Source: Candidatus Zixiibacteriota bacterium
GTDB taxonomy: Bacteria > Zixibacteria > MSB-5A5 > GN15 > JACZUZ01
Assembly (NCBI GenBank): GCA_024280835.1
Contig: JAJRPJ010000010.1
Location: 186,001-250,000, forward strand
Direction of reading: 5' to 3'
DNA length: 64,000 bases
Shown here: in pieces, positions 2,795 through 52,862 of the stretch
Layout of the letters: every line of letters starts with the position of its first letter
Position numbering within the stretch: position 1 is the stretch's first letter
Program-made: the position numbers and the translations under genes
Notes under the pieces: model-generated
Told to the model about the DNA's origin: nothing
The model's input: the letters and a program-made list of their open reading frames with translations, nothing else
Databases searched by the model: none

Positions 2795-2995
2795 GGGAAT
2801 TATCAACAAAACCCGCAACCGTTGCGTTGGGTCTTGCAGCGGCGCTTTTTGCCGACTGTGTCACTGACACCCAGTGGGTGTGACCCGACGCTTTCCCTTT
2901 AGGCGAGTGTCAGGTCATAATTTTCACTGTTTCATTATCAAAACGGGCGAAAATCAAGACCTGACACAACCAATCGGGACTTTATCAACAAGCCC
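2795..2995. repeat. Dispersed non-coding repeat, copy 1 (MITE- or REP-like)
   Basis: This ~200-bp intergenic element recurs at 52680-52862 in the same orientation. Shared parts include the block around 'AACCGTTGCGTTGGGTCTTG', 'TTTTTGCCG', 'CTGACACCCAGTGG', and a long hairpin in which GTGTCAGGTC pairs with GACCTGACAC. The right end reads GGGACTTTATCAACAAGCCC (2976-2995). The left end reads GGGAATTATCAACAAAACCC (2795-2814), a diverged version in the same rather than the inverted orientation. Copy 1 has ~18 extra bases in the hairpin loop. It lies upstream of cmk and has no coding content. The rest of the gap 2740-3379 holds only a weak promoter candidate. Confidence 0.85.
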
Positions 2996-52679: not shown

Positions 52680-52862
52680 GGGCTTGTTGATAAAGTCCGA
52701 AACCGTTGCGTTGGGTCTTGCAACGGCGTTTTTTGCCGTTGTGTTTCTGACACCCAGTGGTTGTGACCCGATGCTTTCTCTTTAAGCGAGTGTCAGGTCA
52801 CAATTTTCAAAAAGCGAAAATCAAGACCTGACACAACTCAGTGGGACTTTATAAACAAGCCC
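52680..52862. repeat. Dispersed non-coding repeat, copy 2 (complementary ends)
   Basis: This 183-bp copy begins GGGCTTGTTGATAAAGTCC (52680-52698) and ends GGGACTTTATAAACAAGCCC (52843-52862), which are complementary terminal repeats. Inside is a hairpin, GTGTCAGGTC...GACCTGACAC with ATTTTC/GAAAAT, and the 'AACCGTTGCGTTGGGTCTTG' block shared with copy 1 at 2795-2995. It lies between the NtrC-type gene and the tRNA-Gln terminator. It has no coding capacity, like a MITE or a mobilisable REP element. Confidence 0.85.

Follow-up and report, generated by a model that had tools for sequence, protein, structure and literature searches.

Two related non-coding repeats in a genome of Candidatus Zixiibacteriota belong to a dispersed family of elements which, judged from their sequence, are MITEs: they are short and non-coding, have inverted ends, are associated with a target duplication of fixed length and have their ends in common with an autonomous IS. 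We consider it very likely that these are IS1182-derived MITEs carrying a pair of REPs as cargo, moved in trans and inserting at the loops of palindromes. An IS1182-family DDE transposase, supplied in trans, would recognise the ends of about 20 bp and would favour palindromic targets, inserting the element at their loop and duplicating the 4 nt of that loop. The parts of this mechanism that find support in sequence are the ends common with IS1182, their polarity, the 4-bp duplications and the palindromic targets, together with the dispersed copies, the presence or absence of the element between genomes and the covarying stems of the REPs.

The window, i.e. the whole stretch of 64,000 nucleotides that was analysed (G000:C12:186001-250000), originates from a 3.31-Mb MAG of Ca. 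Zixiibacteriota (G000, hereafter the host genome). Sequence inspection, BLAST and alignment delineate two complete REP-carrying MITEs in it, copy 1 at 2795-2995 (+) and copy 2 at 52680-52862 (+), whose relatedness, proposed in an initial annotation made from the sequence alone, is borne out by a full-length alignment. The same annotation considered them a two-copy family and suggested counting the copies in the genome; with copy 2 as query, BLAST returned 59 matches, which fall on about 30 separate loci of the host genome, and the family is therefore not restricted to this pair. The host genome harbors about 17 complete copies plus numerous fragments, and 21 matches were obtained in the other genome of the same genus, G003. 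Neither window copy contains an ORF of at least 100 aa and both are situated between genes, in agreement with the lack of coding capacity and the intergenic placement initially reported; copy 2 is located 42 bp after a gene encoding a sigma-54-dependent response regulator and before a tRNA gene. A search of a plasmid collection gave no match to the element.

A complete element opens with a terminal repeat and closes with this repeat inverted; in between come, in this order, a short linker, REP A, a spacer, the inverted REP B and a second linker. The terminal inverted repeats are about 20 bp long and of type GGGCTTGTTGATAAAGTCCC or ...AAACCC. REPs are built from a GTTG tag, a 9-bp stem ending in GGTC/GACC, a conserved internal loop (for example TTG/TGT), a second stem and a loop; REP B follows the plan of REP A in inverted orientation, and the tags of the pair face outward. 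Across many genomes we collected 47 complete REP-carrying elements of 145-227 bp with inverted ends of about 20 bp. Both window copies belong to a long subfamily with an extra hairpin of about 21 bp in REP A; in copy 1, the loop of REP B is in addition enlarged.

Copy 2 comprises a left terminal inverted repeat (52680-52698, +), REP A with its GTTG start and extra hairpin insert (52705-52774, +), the inverted REP B (52790-52837, -, GTTG tag at 52837) and a right terminal inverted repeat (52843-52862, -). Its ends are complementary, as had been noted, with GGGCTTGTTNATAAAGTCC matches at 52680-52698(+) and 52844-52862(-); including a match at 2977-2995(-) in copy 1, the window contains three ends of this type, versus 0.06 expected from shuffles. 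Copy 1 comprises a left terminal repeat (2795-2814, +), REP A with its GTTG start and extra insert of about 21 bp (2821-2891, +), the inverted REP B (2907-2970, -, GTTG tag at 2970) and a right terminal inverted repeat (GGGCTTGTTGATAAAGTCCC; 2976-2995, -). Its left end had been described as lying in the other orientation. Comparison with normal ends indicates that the flip is real (GGGAATTATCAACAAAACCC) but limited to a core of about 11 bp. The terminal repeat around this core (GGG-CTTGTTGATAA-ACCC) is nearly palindromic, and the adjoining linker and REP are in normal orientation; we read the flip as a probable micro-inversion within the palindrome.

A scan of genomes for the terminal repeat shows that the family falls in Candidatus Zixiibacteriota. 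A composite pattern (the terminal repeat, 4-18 bp and the start of the GTTG REP) was found in 22 of 132 genomes of the phylum, distributed in 15 of 85 genera, and the reversed control pattern gave zero matches. Linkers are similar in length across genera and genome-specific in sequence, a pattern suggestive of a long-standing layout whose sequences continue to turn over.

A matching transposase had been proposed as a check, and the same terminal repeat is indeed present on IS1182 genes of the phylum. In other Zixiibacteriota, many contig ends show it immediately upstream of a reading frame of IS1182 type, one of these ends, in G016, being backed by a protein match, and a 1.1-kb internally shortened IS1182 in G003 has it at both ends. 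The transposase protein between such ends has DUF772 and DDE_Tnp_1 domains, and that of the truncated copy scores 265 bits against the IS1182 model NF033551, for a cut-off of 270. Sister genera contain longer IS1182s with matching ends, flanked by 4-bp duplications at L188 (GTTC), L189 (CAAG) and L190 (TTTA). The ends of IS1182 are asymmetric in L191, L193 and L194, with AAAAAG on the side of the transposase start and AAACC on the opposite side; of the 47 gene-less elements, 29 combine an AAAG end with an AAAC end and none has two AAAC ends. As they carry no transposase gene, these elements are an IS1182 derivative and not members of IS1182. Because of the shared ends, the left/right difference, the 4-bp duplications and the palindromic targets, we infer that an IS1182 transposase acts on the element and very probably moves it in trans. 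Neither an IS1182 gene nor a DDE_Tnp_1 protein was detected in the host genome, so its elements may now be stranded without a transposase supplier, with the caveat that a MAG can lose repeated ISs.

The same terminal repeat also bounds or adjoins other palindromic cargo in related genomes, namely CATTGCGAGCGACC repeats (L116, L125, L130, L132, L138), CAGGTGTCTCTGCCTG repeats (L136, L142, L143) and one GTAGGCCGGCGTTCC repeat (L140); such ends seem often to carry hairpin repeats. Contigs QNAF01 (B22_G1) and JAFGAL01 (Zod_maxbin.0182_1) frequently break 50-200 bp inside the IS end, so a high-copy IS1182 fragments these MAG assemblies.

Target-site duplications, which the initial annotation had also suggested looking for, are exact and 4 bp long in the family, with none detectable at either window copy. 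They flank 20 of 50 terminal-repeat pairs, where mispaired flanks would give 1.0, and 21 of the 47 REP-carrying elements, where 0.7 would be expected, other lengths showing no comparable excess in either set; over half of the complete copies lack a target duplication. The four duplicated nucleotides tend to form the loop of a palindromic sequence, the complementarity of the arms exceeding that of all 20,000 re-pairings (p = 5e-5), as in CCCGC-GAAG-GCGGG, CCGGAC-ATCT-GTCCGG and GCGTC-TTCA-GACGC; the longer IS1182 at L189 displays the same loop pattern (CACAG-CAAG-CTGTGG). Some of the target palindromes also occur uninterrupted elsewhere in G003, versus almost none of the swapped-arm controls in BLAST. 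Palindromic targets are a tendency and not a rule, several duplications having flanks with few pairs. At L194, L191 and L076, the two loop copies are reverse complements or nearly so, and not direct repeats (for example CAAG/CTTA, TAAG/TTTA and GTTC/GAAG). At L011, the stop codon TAA of the upstream gene forms part of the duplicated CTAA, so the reading frame of this gene survived an insertion at its very end.

Within the IS1182 family, IS1272 is reported to replace its stem-loop targets without duplication, and duplication of the loop was only drawn as a possible alternative (Fig. 13, pathway c; PMC5678879). The element shares its ends and their left/right asymmetry with the IS1182s of the phylum and inverted-repeat targets with IS1272 (PMC5678879), but it has no transposase gene and, where IS1272 replaces the target stem-loop, the insertions of the element leave the stem in place and double the 4-nt loop. 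From these sequence features, the present family looks as if it follows the alternative, loop-duplicating pathway, and we found no description of target-loop duplication in the open-access literature.

The cargo has the features of a REPIN-like pair of GTTG-tagged REPs, with the two inverted REPs of a REPIN (REP A forward, REP B inverted) and a tag that is invariant but GTTG, versus the GTAG type of REPINs; degenerate tags such as GYAG and GTRG are reported in PMC3733652, in whose text GTTG was not found. Covariation of the stems, another check initially suggested, is strong in both REP stems. Over 37 distinct REP units, a two-stem model pairs 98.1% of cells, against 34-45% when the partner is slid, and double changes number 159 versus 48.6 in shuffles, a test inflated by the relatedness of the units. 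The inner stem is swapped wholesale between genomes (ATTTTC, CGACGGC, TCCCG, CGAATTCG), the GTTG tag and the GGTC/GACC base remaining fixed. Both the control with the slid partner and the fact that the inner stem is entirely replaced speak strongly for conserved pairing in the REPs. With further copies in the genome and covarying stems, neither of the outcomes named as refuting the initial annotation was obtained.

The host genome encodes several REP-associated tyrosine transposases (RAYTs). One of them, L037 (G000:C10:345843-346241; NF047646, 99.6 bits), is flanked by REPs (GTTGCGTCAGGTC-CTCA-GACCTGACG) that have the tag and base stem of the element REPs and no inner stem; the REPs of the element may serve, or may once have served, as substrates for a RAYT of this kind. 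Group 2 TnpAREP enzymes need irregular REP stems, which the bulged REP stem of the element resembles, but with one of the enzymes studied a GTTG tag abolished cleavage (PMC8266576). Other RAYTs of the genus (G003 C5:343-750; L033) have GTAG-tagged REPs nearby (GTAGGTCGGGAGCC..., GTAGGTCGAAACCC...), and several REP systems hence coexist in the genus. Solo long REPs were also observed (L026-L029; L079, L080, L082): L026 and L079 retain remnants of the composite; in L027-L029 the inner stem is extended and perfect (ATTTTCGC..GCGAAAAT), in contrast to that of REPs in composites.

Known REPINs and BIMEs with their RAYTs (PMC3116915, PMC2817692, PMC8266576) resemble the element in their inverted REPs, tetranucleotide tag and stem irregularity, and in being accompanied in the genome by a RAYT whose flanking REPs have a matching tag and base stem. 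They differ in their GTAG tag and in REPs of usually 20-40 bp, versus GTTG and two-stem REPs of 43-50 nt in the element, whose REP pair, unlike theirs, is within DDE-type ends and target duplications. One might envisage a doubly mobile element used by two unrelated transposases, whose ends would be served by the DDE transposase of IS1182 and whose REPs by an HUH RAYT, hairpin loops being both landing sites and favoured cargo of IS1182. We regard this as possible but rather unlikely; if true, it would provide a general route to the capture and spread of REP-type palindromes.

The orientation of the REP pair, with its outward tags, and the RAYT accompanied by REPs of matching tag and stem could also mean that the REP pair is itself the moving unit, a REPIN mobilized by a RAYT, and that the outer GGGCTTGTT...AACAAGCCC repeats are merely its palindromic target. 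The occurrence of solo long REPs would fit, as would the REPs inserted in palindromes in T. roseum and others (PMC3733652). However, the terminal repeats are part of the inserted unit, since the 4-bp duplications are located beyond them, the same ends flank IS1182 genes and other cargo, and some solo REPs are decayed composites (L026, with REP A and terminal repeat remnants). We thus judge movement of the REP pair alone highly unlikely and retain the IS1182-derived MITE.

Comparison with G003 bears on mobility. The element is missing from all 16 orthologous intervals in which both flanks could be placed, a set that includes a few loci with solo REPs or fragments; what G003 shows at these loci is a weak terminal-repeat match at L029 and isolated REP-like matches at three. 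The 16 include both window copies: the interval of copy 2 measures 30 bp in G003 versus 312 bp in the host genome, and that of copy 1 369 bp versus 609 bp. The intergenic flanks of G003 are too diverged for base-exact orthologous empty sites, and absence at a single locus could be a loss in G003. With the dispersed copies, the 4-bp duplications and the same-ended transposase family, these absences uphold the suggestion that the repeats are non-autonomous transposable elements.

The other suggestion, a structured RNA family, was retained in part. Copy 2 folded as DNA lies far below shuffles (z = -6.9) and copy 1 folded as RNA gives z = -4.9 versus shuffles, but the "long hairpin" first described resolves into a pair of like hairpins, REP A and the inverted REP B. 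The element does carry a family of covarying hairpins, yet these resemble REP-type DNA hairpins and not functional RNA, and an Rfam scan of the window matched tRNAs only. The strong fold and covariation, the intergenic position and a terminator-like site in copy 2 would suit retention for function, as a structured RNA or a regulatory element, with spread by duplication or recombination and not by transposition. The transposon ends, the target duplications, the absences at orthologous loci of the sister genome, the lack of a fixed neighbour gene and the absence of an Rfam match in the window make such an origin very improbable. In the preferred MITE, the hairpins may still have a local role, e.g. 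in ending transcripts.

YTAR is suggestive of IS5-type targets, and some duplications fit it (TTAG, CTAA, TTAA, CTAG), but a MITE of an IS5-group element deserves next to no credence and was dropped, since most duplications are not YTAR (GAAG, CTTG, CAAG, TCTG and others), the protein between such ends belongs to IS1182 by its best model (IS5 models giving at most 90 bits) and DDE_Tnp_1 proteins were not found in the host genome. The GTTG...CAAC ends also evoked integron attC sites, whose core is RYYYAAC/GTTRRRY; this was rejected on inspection, as the sequences do not fit the attC core.

REPINs, RAYTs and MITEs are established classes (PMC3116915, PMC2817692, PMC3733652), and ISs inserting into REPs were already known (PMC1525189). 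Bacterial MITEs such as RUP, NEMIS, ERIC and Nezha (PMC3733652) are likewise short, non-coding, intergenic and structured, with terminal inverted repeats, but their interior consists of IS remnants or unrelated sequence, whereas that of the element is a REP pair. The closest REP arrangements described are REP dimers bounded by constant palindromes, GTAG-15 of A. variabilis and CGTC-1 of H. neapolitanus, to which no transposase was linked (PMC3733652, section 7). As in the element, the dimers lie regularly within the same longer palindrome, of which no REP-free copy was found in those species either (PMC3733652); it was described as a surrounding or target sequence, whereas the sequence and polarity of the outer repeat of the element, together with the target duplications, link it to IS1182. 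In the open-access literature we found no report of IS1182-type ends enclosing a REP pair, and no paper on transposable elements of the candidate phylum Zixiibacteriota.

The element thus joins DDE-driven MITEs and RAYT-driven REPINs, repeat classes that are usually kept separate. It could account for the REP dimers within constant palindromes, for which earlier reports gave no explanation. It also supplies evidence from natural sequences for loop-duplicating insertion by IS1182-type ends, a pathway that becomes testable, and documents a large repeat family in the candidate phylum Zixiibacteriota.
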